Assembly (NCBI GenBank): GCA_022566355.1
Contig: JADFJB010000072.1
Coordinates: 1-23,412 of the forward strand
From: a candidate division KSB1 bacterium
Lineage (GTDB): Bacteria; Zhuqueibacterota; JdFR-76; DREG01
Reading direction: 5' to 3'
DNA: 23,412 bases
Shown here: piece after piece, positions 1-20,503 of the stretch
Numbering within the stretch: position 1 is the stretch's first letter
How the letters are laid out: every line of letters begins with the position of its first letter
The notes under the pieces: model-generated
The model's database searches: none
What the model saw: the letters and a program-made list of their open reading frames with translations, nothing else
Told to the model about the DNA's origin: nothing
Program-made: the position numbers and the translations under genes

Positions 1-314
1 CCAACTGCTTTTCAACTCCAGTGGTGTCAAAAAAACTGCTTACCCATTTCAACCGTTGCTTTTTCTTTAAATAATTGAGGGATTTGTTTACTGAAATTCT
101 GTATAGCCAGATTGATAACTGTGCATCTCCGCGGAAGGATTGAATTGAGTTATACTTCGATAAAAACATCCTGAGCGATATCCTCCTCATCTTCCTTATT
201 ACGCAAGAAACCATAACAAGTATTGACTACGGAATCTTTAAAGGATTCTACCAATTCCTTGAAGGCCTGGGAGCTGTACTTTTTTATCTCAGCAATGATC
301 TCTTTTTCATTCAT
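1..314 (-). pseudogene. ECF-type RNA polymerase sigma factor, 5' part, frameshifted and cut by the window edge
   Basis: Reading the minus strand from an ATG at 314-312 gives a typical ECF sigma region 2. There is an N-terminal helix (AFKELVESFKDSV), then NTCYGFLRNKEDEEDIAQDVFIEV, shown here only as the parts CYGFLRN and DEEDIAQDVF, the core-polymerase-binding and -10-recognition segment. The frame then hits TAA at 152-150. Restarting one base earlier, with TAT at 154-152, continues the family without a gap: YNSIQSFRGDAQLSIWLYRI and then a basic NYLKKKQR stretch, running off the window at base 1. A single base is therefore missing between 155 and 154. Region 4 would lie outside the window. No anti-sigma gene is visible. 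The cause may be a real pseudogene or a one-base sequence error. The family assignment is firm; whether the gene is dead is not. Confidence 0.8.
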
Positions 315-337
315 TATCAATCTATCGAAGTCGATTT

Positions 338-365
338 ATTTTACCATAAGACAACTTTTTTCCAA
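338..365 (-). promoter_or_regulatory. possible sigma-70-like promoter for the ECF sigma gene
   Basis: On the minus strand, TTGGAA (365-360) and TAAAAT (343-338) are separated by 16 bases, about 25 bases upstream of the ATG at 314. The region is AT-rich, so a chance match is quite possible. Confidence 0.25.
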
Positions 366-523
366 AATACTTGCGGTTGATTGTTCGGACGTTCACATTT
401 ATTATTGTTAACCTTAAATTAATCAACTGAAAAACATCGAATAGTTTTATTGAATAAATGATGAATACTTTTTTTGAAAAATTGTTTGTGATTTAGGTTC
501 AACATTCTTTTTTTAACTTTGTA

Positions 524-552
524 TTGCAAAGTTCTTTATATTTTATTATAAA
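524..552 (+). promoter_or_regulatory. candidate sigma-70-like promoter upstream of the isomerase gene
   Basis: TTGCAA (524-529) and TATAAA (547-552) are separated by exactly 17 bases, which fits housekeeping sigma spacing. A transcript starting near 559-560 would leave a leader of about 40 bases before the ATG at 599. The rest of 315-598 is AT-rich divergent intergenic sequence in which I see no gene or other structure. Confidence 0.4.
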
Positions 553-598
553 TAAGATCATGTAAATGGAAAAAACAATTTTAGTATAACGAAAATAA

Positions 599-3865: not shown

Positions 3866-4780
3866 ATGCATATAAAAATTCGAAACTTAAATAAAGAATA
3901 TCCAGGCGGTGTATTTGCACTACAAAATGTAAATCTGGATATCTCCACCGGCATGTTTGGTTTATTGGGTCCCAACGGTGCTGGAAAAAGTACCTTAATG
4001 AAAATCCTGGCAACACTTGAAAAGCCTTCTTCAGGAGATGTCTCAATTAATGGTGACAACGTGCTGACTCATCGGCGTGAAATCCGTGCCAAACTTGGCT
4101 ACCTGCCGCAATTTTTTGGCGCTTATCCACAAATGACCGGAATGGAATTTTTAACCTACATTGCAAAGTTGAGTTGCATTTCATCTAAAGAAACTAAAAA
4201 CTGGGTGCAAAAGACACTTGCTCAAGTTGCATTGAGCGACGTTCGTGATCGAAAAGTTAAAACATACTCAGGTGGAATGTTACGACGTTTAGGTATAGCA
4301 CAGGCATTGGTTGGGAATCCGCAGTTACTCATCGTCGATGAGCCCACTACCGGTTTGGATCCTGAGGAAAGAATTCGTTTTCGCAATTTGCTTGCCGAGA
4401 TTAGCAGCGATAAAATCATTATTCTCAGTACGCACATCGTTGGAGATATATCCAGCACCTGTGAAGATATTGCATTGCTTTCTCTTGGTAAAGTTGTGTT
4501 TAACGGTCGGCCTGAAGAATTAATCAATAAAGCAGTGGGTAAGGTTTGGCAAGTCACTTGTAATGAAGAAGATTTTGGAGTTATTTCTTCACAAATGCAT
4601 GTAATTTCTACCATACCCGTTAAGAACCAGCTTCTTCTTCGTGTCGTGGGTGATCCATCGAACGGATTTAATATGGAAGAACTGCCACCCAATCTTGAGG
4701 ATGCTTATATGTATTTCATGGAATTTGTGATCGGTGAATATGTCGAGGATGAAGAGAGCAATGGAGAAGATCAAGCGTAA
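3866..4780 (+). CDS. ABC transporter ATP-binding protein
   Basis: This 304-residue protein is a complete ABC-2-type nucleotide-binding domain. Walker A is GPNGAGKS (35-42, K41), the Q-loop sits in GYLPQFFG, the signature is YSGGM (S135), Walker B is LLIVDEP (D158, catalytic E159) and the H-loop His is H190 in STHIV. The C-terminal third ends with a PNLEDAY motif and an acidic tail. The same LEDAY motif closes the ATPase domain of the RND fusion downstream, so the two are paralogues. It most likely energises the permease encoded at 5032, although 251 bases with two inverted repeats lie between them. The substrate cannot be predicted from sequence. ATG 3866 has only a weak Shine-Dalgarno region. 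Confidence 0.93.
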   Translation: MHIKIRNLNKEYPGGVFALQNVNLDISTGMFGLLGPNGAGKSTLMKILATLEKPSSGDVSINGDNVLTHRREIRAKLGYLPQFFGAYPQMTGMEFLTYIAKLSCISSKETKNWVQKTLAQVALSDVRDRKVKTYSGGMLRRLGIAQALVGNPQLLIVDEPTTGLDPEERIRFRNLLAEISSDKIIILSTHIVGDISSTCEDIALLSLGKVVFNGRPEELINKAVGKVWQVTCNEEDFGVISSQMHVISTIPVKNQLLLRVVGDPSNGFNMEELPPNLEDAYMYFMEFVIGEYVEDEESNGEDQA

Positions 4781-5031: not shown

Positions 5032-8000
5032 TTGAATTCATTAAGATATATTCTTACCATAGCAGCAAATGAACGATTGATGCTATACAGAACCGCCAAG
5101 TTCTGGGTATTAGGTGGCCTCGGCATTATTTTCATGATCTTTTTTCTAGTGATGGTTACCCTGGTAACATTTTTGGATAATAATCCCCCAGGCGAATTTC
5201 TTCTCGACGGAACAGATTCCTATTTGGCCCTGTTTTTCTTTAGTTTTATACAAATCATTTTGATTGTCTTCGTCGCGGTCGATTTTAGAAAGTTGGAAGA
5301 AAAATGGCGATTAGATGAAGTTATGTTTTCCAAACCTATGACCACTGCAAATTGGGTTCTGGGAAAATATTTTGGCGTTGTCTCTTCAATTCTTTATCTC
5401 AACTTATTTTTAATCTTTTTAGCAATTGTTGCTCGGACTATTAAGTATTTTGCTCTTGGAGCCAGTTTTAATATATTGCCTTTCATTACGTATTTCCTGG
5501 TGGTGACCTTTCCTTCAATCCTTTTTATGGTCGCCCTTGTTTTCTTCCTTGTTAGTCTGGTTCGGATTCCTGCTGTGGCAATGTTACTGTCACTAGGTTA
5601 TGTTGCCGGCATTCTTTTTTATTTCCAGGATAAATTTTATGGGATGTTTGATTATGGTTGTTTTTTAGCACAAATTTTTTACAGTGATTTAATTGGCTTT
5701 GGCAACCTTGAACCTATATTGTGGCAACGATTATTTTTCATCACAATCACAATCGTACTGCTGGCTTTTACCATTCTCCTTTATCCAAGACTAAGGCAAT
5801 CCAATTTTTCTTTTCGACTAACTCTCGCGTCATCAGTATTGTTTTCTTTATTGGCCTTTAGTGTCGGAAATAAAATCGTAAACCAACACCAGGCCATAGA
5901 AGAAAAACGATTAGCAGATTATGAATATCAAAGCCAATGGATATCTGAACCAACCTGTAAAGTCAGGCATTATGATTTTGATATAATCCATGGCGATAAA
6001 ACGACACCTCTGCAAGTTAACTTAAAAATGGTCATCACGAATCCAAATTATAAATTATTGCGGCGGTTAGTCTTTGCTTTAAATGGAAATTTAAAAGTAA
6101 GCAAAGTGAATTGGCACGACGGGGAAGAAATCAATTTTATACAGAAACACCAACTACTTGAACTCGATTTACAAAACAAACCATTACTCTCAAGCCAAAC
6201 GGATACAATCGAGGTGCAATATTCTGGTAATGTTGATGGCGATCAATTTATGCTGGATCGAATTCAAAATGAAAAAGGCATCCTCGATAAAAGTAATGGC
6301 CCCTGGAGACAGCCCAATATTTCTGCCTGGGTTGATGAGAAATTCGCAGTTCTTCCGGCAGAAAGCGGATGGTACCCTACACCCGGAGCTGCTGCCGGGT
6401 ATCCATTTGATGCACCTAAAGACAAAAATTTTGCAACAGCTATAATCAGGGTTGAAACCGATCCACATCTAAGAACTATTTCCCAGGGTATCATTGCGGT
6501 TGATACTACAAATCACGGGAAAAGACAAACTACTTTTCTGGTGGAAGATCCGTTACCTGGTTATTCACTTCATATTGGAAATTACCAGGTTTTATCTCAC
6601 CAATTCCAGCAAACCAAATTAGAGTTTTATTATTATAAAAATCACCTGCTGGATTTTGAGGAATTCGAGGATGTTGCTGATACTTGCTTGGATGCTATTG
6701 AACGAATGTTGGAAATTTTTGAGGAAGTTTCAGGTATTCCCTATCCCTATCCTCGATTGGCTATTGTCGAAGTACCTTTGCATCTACAAGTATATATTAA
6801 TCGCTTCGGTCTCAACAATATTCTAATTCAACCTGGTATCATCATGCTAAGTGAAGTAAACTTGGCAAGTAAAAGAATTGGTGTAGAGATTAAAAGAAAA
6901 ACAAAAAGAGCCAGGAAAGATGGGCAAGACGATTCACCAACCAAGGTAAAGAGAGACGTATTTATTGATTTGGTTTTAGAAACATTTATTCCCCAGAGCT
7001 CGTGGCGTACGGAGGGAAGCATTCGCTCTCCTATGAAAAACTACTTACATTTCGGCATAGACATTAAGGACCCGATACTTGCCAGAGCCCTTGATCTGCA
7101 ATTGTACGAGGAAGCAGATCGCCGAATCAATGATGCATTTTATCCTGATAGGTATTTCTTATCTCTTAGTGCAAATGATCGCATGCGCAATTTTGATGGT
7201 GAAAGGGCGATCAAAAGGAAATATGATCTCGAAATCGATTCGTTAATTACGGCGTTATTGCAAAAGCCACTTTCGCAATTTTCACCTGAAATTGACGGCA
7301 AGCTATTTCGAGCAGCAGTTGATTTTAAAGCTCCACCGGTTTTGCAAATGCTACAAGCTAAAACAGACGAGGATATTTATTATCAAGCTTTACAAAAACT
7401 AGTAGAACAATACCGCTATCAACCTGTTACGCGGGAAGATTTTATAGATATTTTGCAGGAAACCAGTAACCAGGATATTAAAGGATTTTTCGATCAGTGG
7501 TTTGAGCAAACATCCTTACCAGGTTACCGCATAACCCGAGCTGATGCTGAAAAAATTGATTCCGGACAAATGAAAATATCCTACCAGGTGACAACCAGAG
7601 TACAAAACGGCGAACGAGGAGACGGATTTGTTCGTTTGGTTTGCTACACGAAAAATGACAAAATCCGACGCAACATCCAGCTTGGAAGCTTCCAGGAGAA
7701 GGAGTTGAAATTTATTGTCCCTGATGAGCCACAAAGAATTTCTGTAATTCCTTATTTTTCCAGAAATCGCGGCAGTATTCAAAAGCAAATTACTATTGCT
7801 TCCCGAATTTCACGAAAATCGCCAATTGACACATCCTATGTTGTATCATCATTAGAAGATGCTGGATCGATTATCATCGATGACAGAGATGATGGTTTCT
7901 TTACACCAACCAGCGCTGAGAAGAAGTATTTTCGCCCACCCTCGAAGGGCAAAAGTTGGTGGTCGTGGACATCACCAATCGCATATGGAAAATATTATTT

Positions 8001-8328
8001 TGGTTTGCATGCAAAACGTGGAGGCAGTGGTCAATATCCTGCTCGCTGGGAAATGCAGCCCCCAAGGAGTGGTGATTATGAGTTGAGCTTTTTTGTTAAA
8101 ATGGGATCAACATGGTGGCGTCGAAATATTAGTCGAAAATTTCAAGTTGCCGTAACCTGCGCTGACGGCACATTTCCAATTGATTTTCAGCCGGAAGATA
8201 CAGTAGAAGGCTGGTTTCCTTTGGGAAGATATCGACTCGTCGAGGGAGAACCTGCGGTTGTCGAGCTTTCGGATAAAGGCAACGGATATATTATAGCGGA
8301 TGCAATCCGCTGGGAATTTATTGAATGA
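5032..8328 (+). CDS. ABC-2 permease fused to an M1-peptidase-like domain and a golvesin-like C-terminal domain
   Basis: This protein has 1098 residues. Residues 1-285 contain about seven hydrophobic segments of an ABC-2 permease; the conserved loop DEVMFSKPMTTANWVLGKY lies near 94-112. Residues about 290-830 resemble the extracytoplasmic M1 aminopeptidase-like region found in some bacterial ABC permeases (helix 544-570, then SGIPYPYPRLAIVEVP). The zinc motif HEXXH is absent: no His-Glu pair occurs anywhere, so this region is probably non-catalytic. Residues about 945-1098 look like a golvesin/xanthan-lyase C-terminal domain (IIIDDRDDGFF at the start, GWFPLGRY, and IIADAIRWE at the end). The TTG start is chosen because AAAAAAGGA lies 11 bases upstream and the next ATG (5080) would trim the first amphipathic segment. 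Its partner should be the ATPase at 3866. The role of the large outer domain is unknown. Confidence 0.85.
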   Translation: MNSLRYILTIAANERLMLYRTAKFWVLGGLGIIFMIFFLVMVTLVTFLDNNPPGEFLLDGTDSYLALFFFSFIQIILIVFVAVDFRKLEEKWRLDEVMFSKPMTTANWVLGKYFGVVSSILYLNLFLIFLAIVARTIKYFALGASFNILPFITYFLVVTFPSILFMVALVFFLVSLVRIPAVAMLLSLGYVAGILFYFQDKFYGMFDYGCFLAQIFYSDLIGFGNLEPILWQRLFFITITIVLLAFTILLYPRLRQSNFSFRLTLASSVLFSLLAFSVGNKIVNQHQAIEEKRLADYEYQSQWISEPTCKVRHYDFDIIHGDKTTPLQVNLKMVITNPNYKLLRRLVFALNGNLKVSKVNWHDGEEINFIQKHQLLELDLQNKPLLSSQTDTIEVQYSGNVDGDQFMLDRIQNEKGILDKSNGPWRQPNISAWVDEKFAVLPAESGWYPTPGAAAGYPFDAPKDKNFATAIIRVETDPHLRTISQGIIAVDTTNHGKRQTTFLVEDPLPGYSLHIGNYQVLSHQFQQTKLEFYYYKNHLLDFEEFEDVADTCLDAIERMLEIFEEVSGIPYPYPRLAIVEVPLHLQVYINRFGLNNILIQPGIIMLSEVNLASKRIGVEIKRKTKRARKDGQDDSPTKVKRDVFIDLVLETFIPQSSWRTEGSIRSPMKNYLHFGIDIKDPILARALDLQLYEEADRRINDAFYPDRYFLSLSANDRMRNFDGERAIKRKYDLEIDSLITALLQKPLSQFSPEIDGKLFRAAVDFKAPPVLQMLQAKTDEDIYYQALQKLVEQYRYQPVTREDFIDILQETSNQDIKGFFDQWFEQTSLPGYRITRADAEKIDSGQMKISYQVTTRVQNGERGDGFVRLVCYTKNDKIRRNIQLGSFQEKELKFIVPDEPQRISVIPYFSRNRGSIQKQITIASRISRKSPIDTSYVVSSLEDAGSIIIDDRDDGFFTPTSAEKKYFRPPSKGKSWWSWTSPIAYGKYYFGLHAKRGGSGQYPARWEMQPPRSGDYELSFFVKMGSTWWRRNISRKFQVAVTCADGTFPIDFQPEDTVEGWFPLGRYRLVEGEPAVVELSDKGNGYIIADAIRWEFIE

Positions 8329-8340
8329 GCAAAAAACGAG

Positions 8341-8345
8341 GGAGG
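8341..8345 (+). promoter_or_regulatory. ribosome binding site deciding the TolC start
   Basis: GGAGG lies six bases before ATG 8352, which directly begins a signal peptide. An in-frame ATG at 8325, overlapping the upstream stop codon, would place nine charged residues before it and lacks such a site. Confidence 0.75.
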
Positions 8346-8351
8346 TCAAGA

Positions 8352-9875
8352 ATGAAATTCAAAAGCTTGCAGATAATTTTTATATTCCTTATTGCAAACT
8401 TTTTTGTGGGATCGGGTATGGCCCAGGAAACATGGATACTAACATTAGAGGAAAGTATCAATATTGCTTTAGGTAAAAGCTACAACGCTAAGAGACTGGA
8501 AGAATCTTTGACCAGTTCCCGGATGAACCTCAAAGCCGCGGAGGCCAGCTTTAAGAGTGATGGTCAATTGGTGTTCTCGAGTTTACCTGAATTTCAGGAG
8601 GGAATCAGGCAGACTCCGATTCCCGGTGGTGGATTTTCTTTTGATCGTGAAAAATTCACCAATCTCCAGGCTGAATTTTTTGCTAACCAACCCATCGCTG
8701 CGACGGACGGGGTGTTTTCGATTGTGGGTTCCATGCAGCGGTTTGATCAAACTGCTATTAATAAAGTTACAGTAGATGGAAACACTTTCGAAGAGACTAC
8801 TGAATTAACAAACTACAGACCGCAATTACGAATCCAATTTCGACAACCCATGTTTACCATTAACCGAAGGAAAATCGGGTACCAAAAAGCTCGCCTAAAT
8901 TTAGAAGATACTGAGCAGCAATATACTCGCAGTCAATTGGATATCATCTTTAATGTCACCTCCAATTTTTATAGCCTTTACAGGGCGCAAGAACAACTAT
9001 CAATCGACCGGGATCAAGTTAGCCAGTCAGAAAATGCATACCGTATTGCTAATCTAAAACAACAGGCAGGTTTATTGCCTGAAGTAGAAGCGTTGCGACT
9101 GGAAATTGATTTAGCCAATGCGAGAAATACAGCAACCAATAGTGAAGCGGCCTTGGAAGAATCAAAAGATGCATTTAAGCTGTTGATTGGCATTCCTATT
9201 ACAACGAATATAAGCGCCATCACAGAATTAACCTACCAGCCGATCCAGGTTTCATTAGAGAAAGCAATTAACGAAGCCTTGAACAGACGAACTGAATTAA
9301 GATCTGATGAGATCAATGTTGAACTCAATCAAATCAACGTTGAGGAGACAGACAGTCAAAGCGAAATCGTTGGCGAGCTATTTTTAAGCTATGGTATTTT
9401 AAAAGTTGCGGATAAATTTAAAGACGCTTTCAATCAATTTGACAATGATAGGAGTGTAAAATTCAGTTTAACACTGCCAATATGGGATTGGGGAAGGAAC
9501 GCGTCCCAAGTTCAGGCGGCAATCGCCAATCTAAATACCACTCGTTTAACCCAACAAAACCGTATTGAACAAATTAAAAAAGAAATCCGAACTGTAGTTC
9601 GTAACCTGCAATCGGCGCGACTGCGAGCCGAAATCACTCAACGAAGCGAGGCTTTAGCTGAAAGAAGTTATAGAATAAGTTTGCTGATATTTGAAAATGG
9701 CGATCTCAGTTCCCAGGATTTAGCATTGGAGCAAAATCGACTTACACAAGCAAGAATTAGTTCTTTACAAGCCATTATTGATCACAAACAATCATTAGCA
9801 GATTTACGCCGCAAAACCCTGTGGGATTTTGAACTAAATGAACCTGTTCGTGTCATAATTCCAGGTCAAGATTGA
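8352..9875 (+). CDS. TolC-family outer-membrane efflux channel
   Basis: The 507-residue protein begins with a signal peptide (MKFKSLQIIFIFLIANFF, likely cleaved after GMA near residue 24). It then shows the duplicated long helical hairpins of outer-membrane efflux proteins. The first repeat spans about 30-285 (LEESINIALGKSYNAKRLEE ... YRIANLKQQAGLLPEVEALR). The second spans about 300-490 (LEKAINEALNRRTELRSDEI ... SYRISLLIFENGDLSSQDL). Such proteins trimerise into the exit duct used by RND and some ABC exporters. The gene overlaps the end of the permease gene's translational unit, so co-translation is likely. It is the only channel protein here and presumably serves both the RND pumps and possibly the ABC modules. 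The substrate is unknown. Confidence 0.92.
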   Translation: MKFKSLQIIFIFLIANFFVGSGMAQETWILTLEESINIALGKSYNAKRLEESLTSSRMNLKAAEASFKSDGQLVFSSLPEFQEGIRQTPIPGGGFSFDREKFTNLQAEFFANQPIAATDGVFSIVGSMQRFDQTAINKVTVDGNTFEETTELTNYRPQLRIQFRQPMFTINRRKIGYQKARLNLEDTEQQYTRSQLDIIFNVTSNFYSLYRAQEQLSIDRDQVSQSENAYRIANLKQQAGLLPEVEALRLEIDLANARNTATNSEAALEESKDAFKLLIGIPITTNISAITELTYQPIQVSLEKAINEALNRRTELRSDEINVELNQINVEETDSQSEIVGELFLSYGILKVADKFKDAFNQFDNDRSVKFSLTLPIWDWGRNASQVQAAIANLNTTRLTQQNRIEQIKKEIRTVVRNLQSARLRAEITQRSEALAERSYRISLLIFENGDLSSQDLALEQNRLTQARISSLQAIIDHKQSLADLRRKTLWDFELNEPVRVIIPGQD

Positions 9876-9894
9876 TTATTTAGACAATTATTAT

Positions 9895-9901
9895 GGAGAA
9901 G
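9895..9901 (+). promoter_or_regulatory. ribosome binding site deciding the adaptor start
   Basis: GGAGAAG lies six bases before ATG 9908. The upstream in-frame ATG at 9893 overlaps this site and lacks its own, so 9908 is preferred. Confidence 0.6.
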
Positions 9902-9907
9902 TTATCG

Positions 9908-10960
9908 ATGAGATCAAAAATATATGTACTCCTATTTTCGCTTTCTTTTTTATTGCTTACTTCCTGCGAATCGGGAGAAAATCGTTCCGCCGCCGACCTG
10001 GCTGTTCCAGTTGTGGTGGAAAAAGTGAAACGAGGTCCGATTTCGGAATTCGTTTCTGCAACGGGTACTTTACAAGCACAAATCGCGGAAAGATTGGTCA
10101 CGGAAGTATCTGGAATACTGCACCTGGTACAAACCAATGGGTCGGTTAATTTCAGCGGCAAACGTGTAGAGGCAGGACAATTCCTTGCAGAAATAGAAAA
10201 TCGGGAATGGCTGTTGGAAGTCAGGGTTGAATCACAACAATTAGCCATGGCCAATGCGGAACGAGAACTGCAAAAACAAGAGGCGTTATTTAGAGAAGGA
10301 GGCGTCACAGAAAAAGAGTTGGAAATTGCCCGGAGAAACGCTCTCGATGCTCGATTGAATTACGAAGCTGCTCAACTAAGAGCTAATAAATTGAAGTTAA
10401 TAGCGCCTATTTCCGGAATTTTATCAAATCTTCAATCCATTTCTGACGGAACTTATGTACCCGTTGGTTTTCAATTCTGCACAATTTCTGATTATTCCAA
10501 AGTTCTGTTAAATACGAATTTACCCAATTCTGATGTTGGGCGAATTAGGATTGGACAGGATGTAATCATCACCAATTATGCATTGGAAGGACAAGTATTC
10601 AATGGAAAAGTAATCTCCATCAATCCTACTGTCGATCCGCAAACCCGCACATTCAAAGTTACTATTGAAGCCATGAATCCCGATTTAATCCTTCGTCCAG
10701 GGATGTTTGCAAAGGCAGATATTGTCGCAAAACACCAACCAGAAGCAATTGTTATCCCTGCAAATACAATTCAAACAAGAGATAACCGCTCAGTCGTTTT
10801 CGTTGTTTCCGGAACGAGCGCCGAGATGATAGAAGTGACCACCGGAATTTCTACTCGCGAAGAGGTTGAAATCGTAAGTGGACTCAATGGCGAAGAGAGG
10901 TTGGTGATCAAAGGTTATGAAACTTTGCAAGATAAATCTAAAGTTAGGGTCACTAAATGA
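9908..10960 (+). CDS. RND efflux periplasmic adaptor (membrane fusion protein), lipoprotein
   Basis: The 350-residue protein starts with a lipoprotein signal (MRSKIYVLLFSLSFLLLTSC; lipobox LTSC, lipidated Cys at position 20). The adaptor fold follows in order. The first lipoyl half carries the barrel strand GPISEFVSATGTL. A coiled-coil hairpin spans about 95-155 (SQQLAMANAERELQKQEALF and GVTEKELEIARRNA). The second lipoyl half is KLIAPISGILSN. The beta-barrel contains VISINPTVDPQTRTFKV, and a membrane-proximal domain ends the protein. Its role is to bridge the inner-membrane RND pump and the TolC channel. It is the only adaptor in the window, lying between the channel gene (32-base gap) and the first RND gene, so both pumps may share it. 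The hairpin is short to medium, as in AcrA/MexA-type adaptors. Confidence 0.92.
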   Translation: MRSKIYVLLFSLSFLLLTSCESGENRSAADLAVPVVVEKVKRGPISEFVSATGTLQAQIAERLVTEVSGILHLVQTNGSVNFSGKRVEAGQFLAEIENREWLLEVRVESQQLAMANAERELQKQEALFREGGVTEKELEIARRNALDARLNYEAAQLRANKLKLIAPISGILSNLQSISDGTYVPVGFQFCTISDYSKVLLNTNLPNSDVGRIRIGQDVIITNYALEGQVFNGKVISINPTVDPQTRTFKVTIEAMNPDLILRPGMFAKADIVAKHQPEAIVIPANTIQTRDNRSVVFVVSGTSAEMIEVTTGISTREEVEIVSGLNGEERLVIKGYETLQDKSKVRVTK

Positions 10961-11047: not shown

Positions 11048-14000
11048 ATGAATTTACCACAATTTTCAGTCAAGTTCCCGGTTACAGTTACTATGATCAT
11101 GTGTGGTATCGCCATCCTGGGATTCATTTCATTCAACCGCCTGGGAACAGATTTACTGCCTTCCATTTATAATCCAAAAATTGTCGTCGAAATCCAGTCA
11201 GGTGAACGTGCGCCCCAGGATATGGAGCAGCGTTTCACTCGCCGGCTTGAAGGATCTCTCGCTACTGTGAGTAAAGTTGTCGATGTCCGTTCAGTTACGA
11301 GCGTCGGGCGAGTCCGAGTCACTACCACATTTAGTTGGGGAACGGATATGGATTTCGCTTTGTTGGATGTGCAAAAGAAGGTGGCCAGCTTTGAATCCGA
11401 TCCTGAGATCGACAAGGTTACAGTTGCCACCTTTGATCCTCAAGAAGAACCCATTATGATTTATGCTCTAAACGCATCTATTTCCGGCGATAGGGATCTG
11501 GATGAATTACGACGTTTAGCGGAAGAGGTCATAAAACGAGGTCTGGAACGATTAGATGGAGTAGCAAGTGTTCAAACTTATGGTGGGATAAAACAGGCAG
11601 TGCAAGTCAAATTGGATGAATATCTCCTCGCTGCTTACGGACTTGGCACACAAGATATCAAAAACAAAATAAGGCAGGCAAATGCTAATGCATCTGGTGG
11701 AAAACTCATCGAATCGGATAAAGCTTACCTGATAAAGGGAATTGGAAAGTATACCAATATTGAGGAGGTTGCCGCAACGGTTATTGGCTACAAATCTACT
11801 ACCCAGGGCACCAATGGGGAGAGCCCATCTACCGGAGCCCGACAAAGCGAAATGACTTTCTCCGGGGATAAAGTACCAATCTTATTAAGCGATGTGGCTG
11901 AAGTAATTTATGCTCCGGAAGAAAGATTGGATATCGTTCGCTTTAACGGTGAGGAAAGCATAGGGTTATACATTTATAAAGAATCCAAAGAGAATACAGT
12001 CCGAGTTGCAAAACAAGTTACAGATGAAGTTGTTCGCTTACAAAGTGAATTGCCCGGTTTGCAATTCACTCAAATCTACAGCCAATCTTCCTTTATCGAA
12101 AAAGCTATAGGTGAAGTCGAAACCACTGCAATTATCGGTATATTTTTAGCAATCCTGGTATTGTATGTTTTTCTCAAAAATATGGGCGCTACACTGATTG
12201 TGAGTTTAGCCATTCCGATCTCCATACTGGCAACCTTTACACTCATGTATTTTCAACGTCTAACATTAAATGTGATGACCCTCGGAGGATTAGCACTTGG
12301 CGCCGGTATGCTGGTAGATAATGCCATCGTAGTTATTGAAAATATATTCAGACGACGGCAATTGGGCGAAGATTCTGAAAAGGCTTCTATCCTGGGTGCT
12401 ACCGAAGTTGGGGTTGCCATTGCGGCTTCTACTTTGACAACAATTATCGTATTTCTACCTATTGTATATGTTCAGGGAGTTGCAGCTGAATTATTTCGGG
12501 AGCAAGCATGGGTAGTTGCGTTTTCACTTCTCTCTTCCTTGCTGGTTGCGTTTCTATTGATCCCCACTCTAACTGCCAAACTGTTCCGTAAGAAATCCTT
12601 TAAATTAGAACAAAAGCAACTTCAATTCCCATTCTATGAAAAAACTTTGCAGTGGGCATTAAACCACCGATGGATTGTAGTAAGTATGGCAGTTGGTTTG
12701 CTTGTTATTTCTATCGTTCTCCTTCCTGTAATCGGCTCGGAATTTGTTCCACGAAGTATTGAAAACCAACTTCAAATCGATATAGAATTAACAACTGGAA
12801 CACCTCTAGATAAAACTGCCATTGTTATTGAAAGTATCGAACATAGAATTCAACAGGTGTTAGGAGAACAATTAGAAAACTGCTACTCGACGATAAATGT
12901 CCAAACCGCTCAATCTTTATTTAATACAAACTCGCAGCAAAATGAACATCAATCAACCATAACACTTAACCTGGTTTCGAACGCAATTTCACCACACCAA
13001 GCGATTGAGCTACTGAAACCAAATCTAACCTTTCCGGGAATATCCACGTCCTTTCGGATTAAAGAAAGCAGTCTACAGCAAACAATTGGCACAAACCAGG
13101 CGCCAATTGTTATTGAGATTCGGGGAGAAGACCTCTCGACTTTACACAGTTTGACGACTCTAACCGCTGAAGCTCTTTCAACCAGTAAGACATTACAAAA
13201 TATAACCACAAGTTTAAAACAGGGTCGACCCGAGTTAAGACTAAGCATCGATAGAGTATTGGCTGCAAATTTTGGCTTAGATGTCCAACAGATTGGCAAC
13301 CTTATCCAGGAAAGGTTAAGCGGTGAAGTAGTATCAGACTTCTATTCCCAGGGCAATGACAGAGATATATTGGTTTCGTATCCAAAATCAACATTAACAG
13401 AATTGAAAAATCTACAAATTCAAACCCCAACTCAAGCGGTTTTGCGTTTGAAAGATATTGTTGAATTTATCCCTGGCGAAGGTCCTGCAGAAATTCATCG
13501 ACATAATCAAACACGTGTTTCGAATGTAAGCGCTCAACTAGTGGAAGGAATAACGCTTAGCCAGGCAGTGGCAGAGATCGATCCAATTTTAGCCAATATT
13601 TCTTTACCACCAAATTACGAAATCAGGTTTACCGGTGAGGAAGCATCTCGCCAGGAATCGTTTTCTCAACTAAAATTTGCTCTACTCTTATCGATTATTT
13701 TGGTTTATATGGTATTGGCATCGTTATTCGAAAGTCTGGTTCATCCATTCACCATATTACTGACTCTGCCTCTGGCGGGCGTTGGAGTTGTATTGGCATT
13801 TCTTTTGGTGGGTGAGCCATTTAGTGTGATGGCGTATATCGGAATTATTATGCTGGCTGGTATTGCTGCAAACGATTCAATCATTTTGGTGGATTATGTG
13901 AATCGTTTACGCGCCGATGGTAAAGCCCTTCGAGCAGCCATTCTCCAGGCAGGAAAAGATAGATTGAGACCTATTTTGATGACCAGCGTAACTACGATCC

Positions 14001-14164
14001 TGGCTTTGCTGCCGCTTACCATTGGCATTGGTGAAGGCACTCGACTCCGTGCACCTATGGCCATCGCCGTGATTGGTGGGTTAGTTACCTCCACCATATT
14101 GACATTGGTCGTAATTCCGGTGGTGTATGAAATAATTGATGGGTTGAGGAGAAGAGCCAGTTAG
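11048..14164 (+). CDS. RND-family efflux pump, inner-membrane subunit (HAE-like)
   Basis: The 1038 residues are the normal length for an AcrB/MexB-class pump: two halves of six membrane helices with large periplasmic loops. Helix 1 lies near 12-31. The helix 4 motif LVDNAIVVIENIF has D424. The second half has the helix 10 segment GIAANDSIILVDY and DRLRPILMTSVTT with R974. Compared with the AcrB relay (D407, D408, K940, R971), the first Asp and the Arg are kept, but the second Asp is N425 and the Lys is N942. Such variants are common in this broad RND group. The pump would work with the adaptor and TolC channel encoded just upstream, driven by the proton gradient. The substrate is unknown. ATG 11048 has no strong Shine-Dalgarno site. 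Confidence 0.93.
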   Translation: MNLPQFSVKFPVTVTMIMCGIAILGFISFNRLGTDLLPSIYNPKIVVEIQSGERAPQDMEQRFTRRLEGSLATVSKVVDVRSVTSVGRVRVTTTFSWGTDMDFALLDVQKKVASFESDPEIDKVTVATFDPQEEPIMIYALNASISGDRDLDELRRLAEEVIKRGLERLDGVASVQTYGGIKQAVQVKLDEYLLAAYGLGTQDIKNKIRQANANASGGKLIESDKAYLIKGIGKYTNIEEVAATVIGYKSTTQGTNGESPSTGARQSEMTFSGDKVPILLSDVAEVIYAPEERLDIVRFNGEESIGLYIYKESKENTVRVAKQVTDEVVRLQSELPGLQFTQIYSQSSFIEKAIGEVETTAIIGIFLAILVLYVFLKNMGATLIVSLAIPISILATFTLMYFQRLTLNVMTLGGLALGAGMLVDNAIVVIENIFRRRQLGEDSEKASILGATEVGVAIAASTLTTIIVFLPIVYVQGVAAELFREQAWVVAFSLLSSLLVAFLLIPTLTAKLFRKKSFKLEQKQLQFPFYEKTLQWALNHRWIVVSMAVGLLVISIVLLPVIGSEFVPRSIENQLQIDIELTTGTPLDKTAIVIESIEHRIQQVLGEQLENCYSTINVQTAQSLFNTNSQQNEHQSTITLNLVSNAISPHQAIELLKPNLTFPGISTSFRIKESSLQQTIGTNQAPIVIEIRGEDLSTLHSLTTLTAEALSTSKTLQNITTSLKQGRPELRLSIDRVLAANFGLDVQQIGNLIQERLSGEVVSDFYSQGNDRDILVSYPKSTLTELKNLQIQTPTQAVLRLKDIVEFIPGEGPAEIHRHNQTRVSNVSAQLVEGITLSQAVAEIDPILANISLPPNYEIRFTGEEASRQESFSQLKFALLLSIILVYMVLASLFESLVHPFTILLTLPLAGVGVVLAFLLVGEPFSVMAYIGIIMLAGIAANDSIILVDYVNRLRADGKALRAAILQAGKDRLRPILMTSVTTILALLPLTIGIGEGTRLRAPMAIAVIGGLVTSTILTLVVIPVVYEIIDGLRRRAS

Positions 14165-14239
14165 GATGACATTGTTTCTTCTTTCCAAAATACTACAATT
14201 GATAGAAATTATGTTTTCTCAGTTGCACATTAAACTAAG

Positions 14240-14820
14240 CCCACGAATTTATTCGTGGGGTAAAAATTCTATTAACAACTCATTAACCGTTTCAACGGTT
14301 TACGAAAGGGGGTTGCATTATGGCACACTCCTTAACAAGAATACGGATACACACTATCTGGAGCACCAAAGATCGAGTTCCACTTATGAAAGATAATTTT
14401 AGGAATCTGATTTTAAAACATATAAAAGGAAATTTTAACGATTTAGCATCCCCAGTACGCACAATTGGTGGTTTGCCAGAACATTTGCATGTTTTGTTTC
14501 TACTAAATTAAAACCAATCAATAGCTAGTACGATGAAATCTGTTAAGGGTGAATCTTCACATTGGATTAATCAACAAGAATTTATTAAAACAAAATTTGC
14601 ATGGCAAGTTGGCTATGCCGCTTTTTCGATTAGCGAATCTTTGTTATCCAAGGTTGAGGATTATATCAACCACCAAAAAAGCCATCATAGAAAAATGACA
14701 TTTAATGAGGAATATATAATATTTCTTAAAAAACATGGCTTACAGGAATCGAAGAGATAAACCATTGAAATGGTTCTTTAAAAGTTCGTTCAACTCGTTA
14801 CCCACAACTGAAGTTGTGGG
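14240..14820 (+). mobile_element. IS200/IS605-type insertion sequence between the two RND genes
   Basis: The element has subterminal hairpins instead of terminal inverted repeats. The left hairpin is CCCACGAAT-TT-ATTCGTGGG (14240-14259) and the right one is CCCACAACT-GA-AGTTGTGGG (14801-14820). A second palindrome AACCGTTTCAACGGTT (14285-14300) sits just before the ribosome binding site AAAGGGGG (14305-14312) of the transposase. A related one, AACCATTGAAATGGTT (14760-14775), follows its stop codon. Exact cleavage ends cannot be placed from one copy; they should lie a little outside both hairpins. The element separates the first RND gene from the RND-ABC fusion and may break the operon. Confidence 0.85.
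14320..14760 (+). pseudogene. tnpA: IS200-like Y1 transposase TnpA, interrupted by an in-frame stop
   Basis: Both halves lie in the same frame and together give about 146 codons, normal for TnpA. The N-terminal part (HTIWSTKDRVPLM) leads to the HUH motif EHLHVLF with H55 and H57. Codon 64 is TAA (14509-14511). Translation past it continues the family directly as NQSIASTMKSVKGESSHWIN, then FAWQVGYAAFS and VEDYINHQ, with the nucleophile Y115 and metal-ligand Q119. A single change from a sense codon such as AAA to TAA would explain the break. All catalytic residues are otherwise kept, so the loss appears recent. The enzyme would cut and rejoin single-stranded DNA at the element's hairpin ends. 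Confidence 0.85.
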
Positions 14821-14857
14821 CTTCATGTTTCTTTGTAATTGTTACTTGAAGGAGAAG

Positions 14858-14943: not shown

Positions 14944-17900
14944 ATGACAAAATTTGCATTAAATCGTCCCATAACAATCATCATGCTAACTTTTGCCCTT
15001 TGTCTTTTGGGCGTGATTTCGTGGAGCAGGCTGCCTGTGCAATTACTGCCGCAATTCATTCTTCCGGAAGTCTATATCAGTGCAGGTATTGCCGGAGCTA
15101 ATGCTGAAAAAATCGAGAGAGATCTTGTTATACCGATTGAAGAGGAAGTTGCAACTCTGGAAGGTGTGCACGATATCGAAAGTACAGTTTACTCAAATTT
15201 CACTAATATCAAAGTGAAATTTGACTATGGCACCAACATGAAATTCGCCGTGCTTAAATTACAACAAAAGATGACGGCTGTTGAAAACCGAATTCCGGAA
15301 GATGTACAAATTCAGGTCAATAAATTTGATACGGCAGATCTGTCTTCATTTTTGATGGAAATCAGTATTCGCGGAGATGCCAGCCTTTCGCAATTACGTG
15401 AAACGGCAGAAAGGCGGGTGTTGCGCCGTCTTGAACAAATTGATGGCGTTGTTAATGTTGGAATTGGCGGCGGTAATAAAAGGAATCTTGGCATAGAAAT
15501 AGATGCTGATCGTTGCGAAGCACTGGGTATTCGCGTTGATCTGGTTCAACAGAAAATCAATGCCTACCACCGTCAACCGCAGCATCTTGGCAGAGTGATT
15601 ACTTCCGGCAAAATGATGGATGTTGTACTTCTTGGCAGAATCGACAATCTGGACGAATTAAGAAACATAATCATTCGCCCGCAGGGCATGGTTCGATTAA
15701 AAGATGTAGCCAAAGTTGACTACAGCCAGGAAGAGCAAACCCGACTGTATCGTGTAAACGGCAAACCACAGGTTGGTATTTTTATTCAGAAAGACAATTC
15801 CAGCAACATGCTCAAAGTTGCAAAAAAAGTTGAGAATGAGATTGCAGCGATAAACAAGGACTTAGCACCGTTAGACTACGAACTCAAGGTCAATTTCAGT
15901 CAGGCTGAAATGATCCAATCAGCCATCGACAGAATTCAAAAACTGGCGATTACAGGTGCGATATTGGCAATCATCGTTCTTTTCCTCTTTTTACGCAATC
16001 TTCGTTTCGTATCTATTTTAATGATTGCAATCCCAATTTCATTACTAGTCACCTTTAATTTGATGTATGGTTTTAATCTTTCTATTAATATACTTTCTTT
16101 GGTTGGTCTGGCGTTAGCAATTGGTATGCTGGTAGATAACGGCATTGTCGTGATGGAAAATATATTTTTACAGCACCAGGCCGGTAAATCCAATAAAGAA
16201 GCGGCATTATTAGGTACCAAAGGAGTGAGCCGCTCAATATTCGCTGCAACCGGAACAACCATCTTAGTATTTCTTCCGGTTCTTTTTGTTGAAAGTGAAG
16301 CCAGGCTATTTATTCGGGAGCTCTCCTTATCCGTAATTTTTCCTTTAGCAGTTTCACTCATCGTTTCACTAACACTCATTCCAATGATCGCGACAAGAGC
16401 TCTCCGGGGCAAACCTTTTAAGCCATTTCATAGTGGAAGAATCTACGAAATATATCGATTACTATTAAAATCAGCGATTCGACACCGAATTCGCACCCTA
16501 TCTATCGTTTCTATTCTTCTATTGCTGAGCATATTTATTGGCGTAACCTTCATCATTACTCAAGCTCCCCCACCACCATCAGCTCGAATGAATTTATATG
16601 TTTCTACTCCAAAAGGCTCAACATTGGAAGTAACCGATAAAGCTGTGAGACGCATTGAAGCTCAGATGTTGGAATTACAAGATATTGATGAAGTCCGTGC
16701 AAATATCCGAGCAGAAGAAGCGAATATTGTAGCTACATTCTTAGATGCAGATCAAAGAACCGAGAACCTGAACCTTGAAAAGAATAAAGACAAAATTCGC
16801 AACCAAAATGAACGAATTGAGAATGTCGACTTATCTTTCGATAGACCACTCCGCTCAGGCTCTGCTGGTCAGGGGAATAATATTTCCAATATCCTGGCCT
16901 CTGAAGAAGGATTGAGGTTGAAAGGATATGATTTACAAGGCCTGCACCAGATTAGCAACCAGATCACGGGAACACTAAAAGGCATTCCGGAAATTGACAA
17001 CCAATCGGTTGTTTCAGATTTACAGGGAGGCGCTCCGGAGTTACAGGTTATCGGAGATAGAATGCGGTTGGCACTTTGGGGATTGAGTATGCAGAACATA
17101 ATGACTGCTATTTGGTCTACCCGCTCCGAAGGGGCAAGTTCCAATACACCCTACTATTCAGAACAGGGCGAAATGGATATAAAGTTGATTTTGGCTAATA
17201 CGGAAGAAAGACAGCTAAATGATATCGGAAAAATTCGCGTAATGAACGCGTCAGGACAATTAGTTCCGCTTAACCAGGTTGCTAAAATTCGCGTGGATGA
17301 AGGAACGGGAAACATCATTCGAGTTAATCAAGAGAGGCAAGTTAAAATTACATATAAATTTATCGATGAAGTGCAGAAATCCAAGGGTCGTCAGGAAATG
17401 GCAAAAGCCCAGATCGATCGTTTCATTAGTGAATTAAGACTTCCAAAAGGGTTTTCCATTGAAAAGCTTGAAAATGAAAATGTCAGGGCTCCTTACTATT
17501 GGATGCTTGCAATTGGTTTTCTATTAATTTATATGTTCCTTGCAGCTCAGTTCGAATCTCTTTCAATGCCAATCATTATACTGGGCACGGTGCCAACAGC
17601 AGTCATCGGTTCATTGTTTGCACTGGTTATAACCGGCACCCCACTTTCGCTTGGTCAAAGCGCTCCTATGGCGTTGTTAGGCTTGATCGTGCTTTTAGGT
17701 ATCGTAGTTAATAACGGAATTATCCTCTTAGATCGCATTGCAATTTTACGAACGCAACATCATTATCGATGGCAGCGAGCTGTCATCATTGCAGGACAAA
17801 GTCGGGTGCGGCCCATTTTAATGACATCTGCAACCACCATACTGGGACTTTTTCCTCTTGCACTCAAGCAGGGAACAGAATTTGAGTTGTGGCCGCCATT

Positions 17901-19713
17901 TGCAATCACTGTAATTGGTGGCCTCATAGTTTCCACCCTATCCACTTTAGTGTTTATCCCTGTTCTTTACGTCGGCCTTGAACAAACAAAAGCCTGGCTA
18001 AAAAAAATTGGTTGGTTTGGGATACTTCTTGGAACTTTGGCATCTGCAGCAATCTTATACTGGATTTACGATACATATCAAAGCAAAATCTATACAATCC
18101 TCATTATCCTGCCAATCTGGTTTATCATTTTGGGTATTATTTATAGTATCCAGCAGTTCTTAATTGTTAAACAAGAAAAAGATAAATTAGCATCTCAAAA
18201 ATTTACCATTCGAATTAAAAATCTTACCAAGATTTATGGCGCACCTGGCAGGTTTATACGAGAATGGAATAGAGAAAAAAGAAGAGTGGCTTCCTTTTTT
18301 GCAAAGGGACAAATACCTTGGGAGAACGAGGGAATTTATCAAGCTGCCATCTGGTTGCTAACTATTTTTATTTTTATAGTCTATCTTCATACCTTTTTGA
18401 GTAGTTCTTTCTGGCTAGTCGTTCTTAGTCTACTGAATTTGATCTGCATATTTTCTGCAAGAGCATTGTGGTATAAATGGCGCTTTGTCAATGGCAAACC
18501 GCCCAAACCTAAAAAGAAACAAAAAAGGTGGCTGTTTTTCAAAAAGAAGAAAAATCAGGAAGCTGCAAGCGCCGAAGAAATTACACCCCTTAATTTTCCG
18601 AAACGCGGTGGATTCTTTATTTACCTGGCTTTTCTTGCTTATTTACCAATTCGTACTGGCTCAACAACATGGACTATCATTGTTTTGGTCTTGACACTTT
18701 TGTTGTTTCAATTCTATCGCATTGGCAGAAAAATAGAATCGGGACAAATTGATCCTGAGCAGCCGAAAGGCAAACTTAAAAAAATTAAACGAGTCGTTTA
18801 TGCGATTACGAAATTCATTCCAATTATTCGACCCCCAAAACAACAGGTAGTGGCTTTAAATGGAGTGAGTCTTAATATCGGTCAAGGGATGTTTGGTCTT
18901 CTTGGACCGAATGGAGCTGGCAAAACTACTTTGATGCGAATCCTTGTCGGTGTTTTGGAAGCTGATCATGGCAGCATAAAAATAAATGAAAGTCTCTTAA
19001 AAGATCATCGAGCAACATTTCATGGCTCGATCGGTTATTTACCACAGGATTTTGGACTCTATGAAAATATGACTCCTCTTGAATATTTAAATTATCATGC
19101 ACTATCGAACAACATCTATCAAGAGAAAGAACGTGAAGAACTAATTGAACATACCCTCAAAAATGTCGGAATCTGGGATCGAAAAGACACCAAAATTAAA
19201 ACATTTTCGGGTGGGATGAAACAGCGGGTTGGTATCGCGCAAACGCTACTTCACCTGCCGCAAATCATCGTTGTGGATGAACCCACTGCGGGGCTCGATC
19301 CAAAACAACGAATTAAATTCCGAAACCTGCTGGCTGATTTAGCAAAGGACAGAATTGTTGTCTTTAGTACGCACATCGTAGAAGATATTGCCAGCACATG
19401 TCACGATATGGCGGTTCTGAATAAAGGTGAAGTAGTATTCAATGGATCGCCAAGAGAGATGCAGAGAAGCGCCCGTGGTAAGGTTTTCGAAGCGATTATT
19501 GAAGAGGGTCAATTTAACGAATTGCAAAAAAAATTGAAGATCATACAACACAGCAAAGTTGACAACCGAATTCGTCTGAGGTTTTTAAGTGAACAAGCGG
19601 TCGATGAACTTGATGCGAAAGCAGTGGAACCAACTCTGGAAGATGCCTATGTGTTATTACTGCAAGGGAAAAAGAATTCGGAGGAAAATGGCAGTGAGTC
19701 CTTGGATAAATAA
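14944..19713 (+). CDS. RND efflux pump fused to a membrane-split ABC ATPase domain
   Basis: This 1589-residue protein joins two transporter types in one unbroken frame. Residues 1-1010 are a complete RND pump: helix 4 LVDNGIVVMENIF with D398, helix 10 GIVVNNGIILLD with N923, and R956 in RVRPILMTSATT. Two extra hydrophobic segments follow (about 1024-1042 and 1052-1072). The ATPase domain opens with IRIKNLTKIYG (1089-1099) and resumes at VVALNGVSLNIGQGMFGLLG (1302-1321). It has Walker A GPNGAGKT (1321-1328), Q-loop Q1368, signature FSGGM (S1422), Walker B IIVVDEP (D1445, E1446) and H-loop H1477, all intact, plus a terminal LEDAY motif. The 200-residue insert (1100-1299) has hydrophobic segments near 1134-1152, 1155-1177, 1224-1236 and 1243-1258 and a lysine-rich loop at 1185-1203. 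The permease at 19730 is its likely ABC partner. No clear ribosome site is seen at ATG 14944. Confidence 0.92.
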   Translation: MTKFALNRPITIIMLTFALCLLGVISWSRLPVQLLPQFILPEVYISAGIAGANAEKIERDLVIPIEEEVATLEGVHDIESTVYSNFTNIKVKFDYGTNMKFAVLKLQQKMTAVENRIPEDVQIQVNKFDTADLSSFLMEISIRGDASLSQLRETAERRVLRRLEQIDGVVNVGIGGGNKRNLGIEIDADRCEALGIRVDLVQQKINAYHRQPQHLGRVITSGKMMDVVLLGRIDNLDELRNIIIRPQGMVRLKDVAKVDYSQEEQTRLYRVNGKPQVGIFIQKDNSSNMLKVAKKVENEIAAINKDLAPLDYELKVNFSQAEMIQSAIDRIQKLAITGAILAIIVLFLFLRNLRFVSILMIAIPISLLVTFNLMYGFNLSINILSLVGLALAIGMLVDNGIVVMENIFLQHQAGKSNKEAALLGTKGVSRSIFAATGTTILVFLPVLFVESEARLFIRELSLSVIFPLAVSLIVSLTLIPMIATRALRGKPFKPFHSGRIYEIYRLLLKSAIRHRIRTLSIVSILLLLSIFIGVTFIITQAPPPPSARMNLYVSTPKGSTLEVTDKAVRRIEAQMLELQDIDEVRANIRAEEANIVATFLDADQRTENLNLEKNKDKIRNQNERIENVDLSFDRPLRSGSAGQGNNISNILASEEGLRLKGYDLQGLHQISNQITGTLKGIPEIDNQSVVSDLQGGAPELQVIGDRMRLALWGLSMQNIMTAIWSTRSEGASSNTPYYSEQGEMDIKLILANTEERQLNDIGKIRVMNASGQLVPLNQVAKIRVDEGTGNIIRVNQERQVKITYKFIDEVQKSKGRQEMAKAQIDRFISELRLPKGFSIEKLENENVRAPYYWMLAIGFLLIYMFLAAQFESLSMPIIILGTVPTAVIGSLFALVITGTPLSLGQSAPMALLGLIVLLGIVVNNGIILLDRIAILRTQHHYRWQRAVIIAGQSRVRPILMTSATTILGLFPLALKQGTEFELWPPFAITVIGGLIVSTLSTLVFIPVLYVGLEQTKAWLKKIGWFGILLGTLASAAILYWIYDTYQSKIYTILIILPIWFIILGIIYSIQQFLIVKQEKDKLASQKFTIRIKNLTKIYGAPGRFIREWNREKRRVASFFAKGQIPWENEGIYQAAIWLLTIFIFIVYLHTFLSSSFWLVVLSLLNLICIFSARALWYKWRFVNGKPPKPKKKQKRWLFFKKKKNQEAASAEEITPLNFPKRGGFFIYLAFLAYLPIRTGSTTWTIIVLVLTLLLFQFYRIGRKIESGQIDPEQPKGKLKKIKRVVYAITKFIPIIRPPKQQVVALNGVSLNIGQGMFGLLGPNGAGKTTLMRILVGVLEADHGSIKINESLLKDHRATFHGSIGYLPQDFGLYENMTPLEYLNYHALSNNIYQEKEREELIEHTLKNVGIWDRKDTKIKTFSGGMKQRVGIAQTLLHLPQIIVVDEPTAGLDPKQRIKFRNLLADLAKDRIVVFSTHIVEDIASTCHDMAVLNKGEVVFNGSPREMQRSARGKVFEAIIEEGQFNELQKKLKIIQHSKVDNRIRLRFLSEQAVDELDAKAVEPTLEDAYVLLLQGKKNSEENGSESLDK

Positions 19714-19729
19714 GGTCTATTGAGAAACC

Positions 19730-20503
19730 ATGAATAAAACCCAATACAAATTCGGAAGTAACATCTACAATAAATTCTCGCAGCTTACTACCAAAGAACA
19801 GTTAACGATTGGAATTAAAATATTACACCTTCAAGCTCAAATCCTATTTTTTAATAGATTCTACTGGTTTATTGCTGGTATTTTTGGCTATTTCATCATC
19901 GCGTACATCATCAATTATAATAACGATATGATTAATCGCGTGTCGCAGGAAGATGTACTTCTTGCACTTTTTATGCTTCCCTTTGCTGTCTTAGCCATTT
20001 TACTGAATATGCAGGTAATTTCCAGGGAAAAAGACAACCGTACACTCGAGGTGATGTTTACCACCTCCGGGTCGCGGTATAAAGTCTGGATATTAAGGCT
20101 GGTCACATTAAACCTGATCCTGCTAACACTCTCAATTCTCTTTAGTACATTTGTTTTTTTTACTTTTACTGAAATAGAAATTATTGCTACAGGCATTCAT
20201 GCTTTCGTGCCTACATTTTTCTTAGGAAGTATGACGCTATATTTTGCTGTGAAATTCCGCAGCGGCTTTGCTGCCGGAATGTGGTCATTTGGGATTTTAC
20301 TTCTAATATTAATGTTTTCTGAGCCATTAGATGAGACAAAATATTCACTCTTTTTTAATCCTTACGATATCCCCCGACGTTTAGATCCGGAAACCTGGAA
20401 TCTTTGGATGTGGCAAAATCGTATTGCTGTTTTGCTTTTTGGATGTTTCCTGCAGTTTATGGCTTTACGCGGTTTGGAAAATAGGGAGAAAATGTTGAGT
20501 TAA
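19730..20503 (+). CDS. ABC-2 type permease
   Basis: This 257-residue integral membrane protein has about six hydrophobic segments: near 43-63 (FYWFIAGIFGYFIIAYII), 75-95, 120-143, 150-170, 175-195 and 230-247. Between segments 2 and 3 lies the ABC-2 cytoplasmic loop ISREKDNRTLEVMFTTSGSR, which contacts the ATPase in this family. It starts 16 bases after the stop codon of the RND-ABC fusion, so the two are almost certainly translated from one transcript, and its ATPase is most likely the domain fused to the RND pump. Unlike the permease at 5032 it has no large outer domain. The substrate is unknown. The start has only a weak ribosome site (TGAGAAACC). Confidence 0.88.
   Translation: MNKTQYKFGSNIYNKFSQLTTKEQLTIGIKILHLQAQILFFNRFYWFIAGIFGYFIIAYIINYNNDMINRVSQEDVLLALFMLPFAVLAILLNMQVISREKDNRTLEVMFTTSGSRYKVWILRLVTLNLILLTLSILFSTFVFFTFTEIEIIATGIHAFVPTFFLGSMTLYFAVKFRSGFAAGMWSFGILLLILMFSEPLDETKYSLFFNPYDIPRRLDPETWNLWMWQNRIAVLLFGCFLQFMALRGLENREKMLS

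Follow-up and report, generated by a model that had tools for sequence, protein, structure and literature searches.

Efflux pumps of bacteria are classed by their energy source, RND pumps being driven by ion gradients and ABC transporters by ATP. In protein export by SecA and SecDF, an ATP-driven step is followed by a proton-driven step of RND type. An ABC-2 exporter requires two ATPases and two permeases. The window analyzed here (the whole stretch of DNA, 23,412 nucleotides) encodes a protein that is a real and conserved RND-ABC fusion. The fusion gene (14944-19713) stands between a second RND gene and a small permease gene, and the gene set contains the following features, in this order:

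3866..4780, + strand: ABC1, a free-standing GldA-like ABC ATPase, 45% identical to the fused ATPase
5032..8328, + strand: large M1-peptidase (PF01433) and Golvesin_C (PF25275) protein with a putative N-terminal membrane/permease part; order conserved
8325..9875, + strand: outer-membrane channel of the TolC family (PF02321); order conserved
9893..10960, + strand: periplasmic adaptor of the MFP/HlyD family (TIGR01730, 189.4 bits, cut-off 94.9); order conserved
11048..14164, + strand: RND1, the second RND permease (PF00873), in a clade of its own
14944..17982, + strand: RND2, the RND permease domain of the fusion (HAE-type fold, porter domains), residues 1-1013; from PF00873 and PDB relatives
18013..18192, + strand: TM13-14, two extra TM helices, residues ~1024-1083; helices 20-41 and 44-79 of the AlphaFold model, pLDDT mostly 85-92
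18199..18240, + strand: strand 1 and A-loop of the ATPase (NBD), 'IRIKNLTKIYG', residues 1086-1099; model strand 85-94
18250..18267, + strand: 'RFxREW' motif 3' of the A-loop, residues 1103-1108; R1106 in 53 and W1108 in 55 of 56 fusions, invariant in alignment A1
18325..18738, + strand: four TM helices inserted in the NBD, residues ~1128-1265; from the AlphaFold model and the alignment of 56 fusions
18829..19668, + strand: remaining ABC ATPase, GldA/NosF-like, with all catalytic motifs, residues ~1296-1575; from PF00005 and a GldA model match below cut-off
19730..20503, + strand: ABC-2 type permease of 257 residues with six TM helices and the coupling-helix motif 'EKDNRTLEVMF', the presumed partner; from AlphaFold and fold alignment

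Anatomy and distribution of the fusion

The fusion gene runs from ATG to stop in one open frame of 1589 residues, and the same frame is found in dozens of genomes, which agrees with the uninterrupted frame claimed in a sequence-only reading of this DNA. The N-terminal part has the HAE-type RND organization, as it consists of a full-length ACR_tran domain (PF00873, residues 1-1011, model positions 1-1019 of 1021, E 1e-192), and its full-length relatives in the PDB are MdtB, ZneA, CmeB, and AcrB. The C-terminal part contains the complete ABC_tran model (PF00005, residues 1305-1449, E 2e-29). Among the ABC models of NCBIfam, GldA matched the fused ATPase best, followed by DrrA, both below cut-off. 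With every ATPase motif found, the description of a full RND pump joined to a full ABC ATPase is borne out.

Many genomes of the window's phylum contain matches to the C-terminal 578 residues of the fusion, and most of these matches lie in intact frames of ~1560-1610 aa. Caldithrix/Calditrichaeota and candidate division KSB1 MAGs are among the named records of this group, as is one record labelled Bacteroidota. A linker profile (A3) spanning TM13-18 and NBD strand 1 identified the fusion in 41 of 82 genomes of this phylum, with one copy each. In a wider sample, it was detected in four genomes outside the phylum, and a search of their phyla returned 5 of 6, 1 of 68, and 31 of 64 genomes, so that the fusion is present in a total of ~78 genomes from four phyla. 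Two genomes of one small phylum harbor two copies each (G390, C109 and C288; G391, C198 and C66), and all other positive genomes have a single copy. In the phylum with 31 positive genomes, G493 and G494 are each assembled in one contig and contain fusion frames of 1582 and 1709 aa without stops. Among 72,556 plasmids, tblastn detected nothing that spanned 80% of the fusion's C-terminal region, and no fusion match was obtained in the viral contigs searched. The two plasmid matches inspected, in Gemmatirosa and Hymenobacter, were separate ATPases encoded next to a large ORF, which in Hymenobacter is annotated as an M1 aminopeptidase, and were rejected as fusions.

The RND domains of 32 fusions formed one clade (support 100) apart from RND1 and the other RND proteins of the window's genome, in a quick tree with long outgroup branches; the RND1 sequences formed their own clade (support 100). 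This topology fits a single ancient fusion that was followed by spread or loss. An accidental in-frame fusion, a chimeric contig, or a sequencing error is favored by the rarity of the fusion outside the four phyla and by nothing more. Its probability is negligible, because the same architecture recurs in ~78 genomes with one RND clade and purifying selection in the NBD, and recurrence across phyla in single-contig genomes excludes chance, sequencing error, and chimeric assembly. The intact frames, including those in one contig, carry neither a stop nor a frameshift between the RND and ATPase parts. The earlier view of the fusion as selected and not accidental is thus upheld.

The split ATPase and the RND relay

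AlphaFold models were obtained for fusion residues 1005-1589 (from 31 sequences; mean pLDDT 82, pTM 0.67) and for the permease, each alone. In the C-terminal model, TM13-14 are followed by the strand 'IRIKNLTKI', the A-loop tyrosine, the RFxREW helix, four TM helices, and the remainder of the NBD. Fold comparison returned a match list filled by NBDs, and the modeled NBD has the canonical fold (4yer_B, Z 30.0, rmsd 3.2, 266 aligned, model range 81..572; LptB, Z 27.6). In the structural alignment to solved NBDs, model residues 81-83 match residues 1-2 of canonical ATPases, and the alignment extends to ~572. Since it begins at the strand before the insert, the modeled ATPase domain is one fold that is completed by two pieces flanking the membrane insert. 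The junction proposed in the sequence-only reading was correct as an in-frame fusion; however, an ATPase simply appended to an RND pump does not describe it, because NBD strand 1 and the A-loop precede the four-TM insert.

The 'KIY' of strand 1 and the A-loop was conserved in all 56 fusions aligned, and the insert measured 158-221 residues in each of them, so that the contiguous NBD chain, which is usual but not strictly defining for such ATPases, is absent. In ABC1, by contrast, only a few residues separate strand 1 and the A-loop from the remainder. When the two pieces of the fused NBD were spliced together, they aligned cleanly with ABC1 over the full length. Pfam and PDB searches with the TM insert gave weak scattered matches only, and no convincing family or PDB relative. 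For a fold that has been studied so extensively, it is unusual that an ABC ATPase can accommodate four membrane helices between strand 1 and Walker A.

The fused ATPase contains Walker A (K1327), the Q-loop (Q1368), the signature (S1422-Q1427), Walker B (D1445), the catalytic glutamate (E1446), the D-loop (D1452), and the H-loop (H1477). In the residue alignment (56 fusions, four phyla), K1096, Y1098, K1327, Q1368, S1422, G1423, G1424, Q1427, D1445, and E1446 were invariant, and D1452 and H1477 were present in 55 of 56, with one gap. NBD divergence in three sequence pairs was 7-10% at second and 38-65% at third codon positions. The invariant catalytic residues and the low second-position change indicate purifying selection, and the fused ATPase should be active.

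The RND part retained two of the relay residues of AcrB in all 56 fusions, namely D407 (here D398) and R971 (here R956). On the other hand, the D408 position was occupied by N in 54 fusions and by S in two, and the K940 position by N in all 56. The fusions therefore lack the complete AcrB-type relay, as D407, D408, K940, and R971 are all required in AcrB (PMC8277102). The same VDN/VVNN pattern was found in unfused RND pumps of the window's genome (L085, L087, L088, L090, and L094), which makes it a subtype trait and leaves the RND fold and the family match untouched. A replacement of proton drive by ATP, as might be read from the relay loss, was rejected for the same reason. The proton drive ascribed earlier to the pump was an assumption, and with D408 and K940 substituted it is uncertain. 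The fusion scored 351.6 bits against a cut-off of 1774 for MdtC and 317.8 bits against 1584 for MdtB, and RND1 scored 415.3 and 395.8 bits with the same models; orthology of the fusion to MdtB or MdtC is not indicated.

The chain is split in at least three genomes, at loci L080 (G059), L054 (G079), and L122 (G135). In L080, the break lies between TM14 and NBD strand 1, and a second ORF of 483 aa encodes strand 1, the four TM helices, and the NBD. In L054, it falls midway through the insert, within a poorly ordered loop. Both sites contain REP/MITE-like repeats: a 41-nt imperfect palindrome in the L080 gap (L080:5579-5675) and a 17-nt inverted repeat in L054 (L054:7130-7188). As the halves in L080 and L054 remain open and adjacent, covalent linkage is perhaps not essential; the splits mark module borders and suggest a linkage that is nearly universal and perhaps dispensable. 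These two breaks would also suit an ATPase and permease that form a unit independent of the RND pump, joined to it only for co-assembly or substrate hand-over and with separate cycles. Such tethering without energetic coupling seems unlikely, because nearly all of the ~78 genomes, from four phyla, retain the linkage and because NBD strand 1, which sits between the RND domain and the inserted helices, ties the two parts more tightly than a loose tether.

The operon and the downstream permease

The gene order of the window recurs across its phylum and in other phyla, although TolC is absent from one sub-clade, and in the KSB1-type loci L047 and L048, RND1, the adaptor, and TolC, where seen, belong to an adjoining divergent gene set. 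RND1 is the next gene upstream of the fusion in 39 of the 43 loci with room for it, which places two adjacent RND genes and an adaptor in one cluster, as in MdtABC. Pairwise identities of RND1 and RND2 correlate (rho 0.88, 26 loci), in part through shared species history. The gap between RND1 and the fusion is unusually long in the window (779 bp) because it contains a degenerate IS200-like element (14239-14822). This element is bounded by the hairpins CCCACGAATTTATTCGTGGG (14240-14259) and CCCACAACTGAAGTTGTGGG (14801-14820), and between them a Y1 transposase frame with an in-frame stop begins at 14320 (PF01797, E 7e-21). An Rfam search of the window gave no match.

The permease model (pLDDT 82.5) has six TM helices and a cytoplasmic coupling helix (101-110) with a conserved E/D-x-R-x-x-E motif, as is typical of ABC-2 permeases. 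Its sequence matched PF12679 weakly (22.1 bits, cut-off 27.2), and no Pfam family exceeded its cut-off. In fold alignment (VIA-align), ABCG, ABCA, and NosY were nearest, with Z ~16 and 8-13% identity. The question raised in the earlier reading, whether the fusion recurs together with the downstream permease, has a clear answer: the permease is the next recognized gene 3' of the fusion in 50 of the 51 loci with room, often overlapping the fusion stop, and in the one exception (G071) it is on another contig. Among the 82 genomes of the phylum, the permease and the fusion linker occurred together in 39, the permease alone in 3, the linker alone in 2, and neither in 38 (Fisher p 4e-17, uncorrected for kinship). 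One genome in which no fusion linker was detected has its permease gene split over two frames at a contig start (G081:C69:147-871), possibly a decaying system.

The fusion is thus selected, recurrent, and kept with the downstream permease, and the best reading is that the fused ATPase would drive this permease within an RND complex; the ABC-2 permease is its most likely partner, as judged from sequence and gene order. The permease model is also close to NosY (Z 16.0, rmsd 3.5, 212 aligned), the fused NBD fits those of NosF, MacB, and FtsE, and the altered RND relay makes a different drive conceivable. These features would suit a regulatory or mechanical role similar to that of NosFY or FtsEX/MacB, in which ATPase and permease use ATP hydrolysis for conformational changes that gate or assemble the RND-TolC path, without moving substrate. 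We regard such a role as improbable, since the permease is equally close to the substrate-moving ABCG and ABCA (Z 15-16.5), and D408N/K940N also occur in the unfused RND pumps of the genome and do not point to a lost proton drive here.

ABC1 could be an alternative dimer partner, as it is 45% identical to the fused NBD, alignable over the full length, and encoded in the same conserved gene set. The fused ATPase would then pair with ABC1 and serve the M1-peptidase membrane protein. Heterodimeric ABC pairs often have one degenerate catalytic site, whereas neither NBD has one here. In addition, the gene next to the fusion encodes an ABC-2 permease that looks cognate, and an ABC ATPase is encoded with an M1-peptidase protein of ~1190 aa on a Hymenobacter plasmid that has no RND genes nearby. 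Pairing with ABC1 is consequently very improbable, and ABC1 and the M1-peptidase protein seem to be a separate ABC system that joined the fusion operon. The Golvesin_C domain of the latter protein is at its C-terminus (residues 976-1094). Two ORFs matching the Hymenobacter pair in size lie next to each other on a Gemmatirosa plasmid, and the two plasmid loci are L098:6064-10551 and L081:6064-10546.

Overall, selection, recurrence, and the permease partnership supported the earlier interpretation in part, and it overlooked the split ATPase, the second RND, the second ABC pair, and the non-canonical relay.

A probable hybrid exporter and its relation to known systems

The fusion probably, with some reservation, lies at the center of a hybrid tripartite exporter, in which an RND1/RND2 heteromer, an adaptor/TolC path, and a tethered ABC-2 unit are combined and ATP-driven extraction feeds RND/TolC export. 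RND2 and RND1 would form a heteromeric trimer that is docked to TolC by the adaptor. The RND2-borne ATPase would dimerize and power the small ABC-2 permease encoded 3', and an ATP-powered export or flipping unit would thereby be linked physically to the RND pump. By means of the four inserted TM helices, the ATPase may be held at the membrane next to the permease. The substrate is probably lipid-like or a peptide, and the ABC-2 unit would extract or flip it from the cytoplasm or the inner leaflet; uptake by the RND porter domains would follow in the periplasm or at the outer leaflet, and RND1/RND2, the adaptor, and TolC would then carry the substrate outside.

The active form of the two-RND system of E. 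coli is the 2:1 heterotrimer MdtB2C (PMC12802153), and a 2:1 trimer of RND2 and RND1 would likewise supply the two ATPases needed by one ABC-2 exporter. A dual-energized exporter class is conceivable in which the insert-split ATPase on the RND chain mechanically couples ABC-2 hydrolysis to the RND cycle and a 2:1 ratio of RND2 to RND1 gives exactly two ATPases; we put this stricter proposal forward tentatively. If the energy sources were coupled, the system would be categorically new rather than a variant of a two-RND pump with an ABC-2 exporter.

The domains are known throughout, and no paper describing an RND-ABC fusion was found in the open-access papers searched. The conserved fusion is apparently a genuine and undescribed two-engine export machine. 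Both engines in one conserved chain, together with a partner permease and an adaptor/TolC path, blur the division between RND and ABC systems, and the fusion operon offers a natural system for direct tests of how substrate passes from the extraction step in the cytoplasm to export across the envelope.

The two-RND pumps MdtABC and MuxABC share with the fusion operon two different adjacent RND genes, one adaptor, and a plausible heteromeric trimer. However, MdtB and MdtC lack an ATPase, and the fusion is far below their cut-offs and differs in the relay residues. In MacAB-TolC, as here, an ABC ATPase with the same NBD fold energizes an envelope-spanning adaptor-TolC system, but MacB combines an ABC permease with an NBD of its own and lacks RND domains, whereas the NBD of the fusion is on an RND protein and the ABC-2 permease is separate. 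The ABC-2/type V systems NosFY, GldA-GldFG, and ABCG/ABCA resemble the locus in both components, as the permease model is similar to NosY, ABCG, and ABCA and the fused NBD to NosF and GldA. In contrast, their NBD is contiguous and either free or on its own permease, and that of the fusion is split by TM helices and carried by an RND chain. SecA and SecDF differ from the fusion in that they are separate proteins, use an ATPase of another family, and serve protein export.
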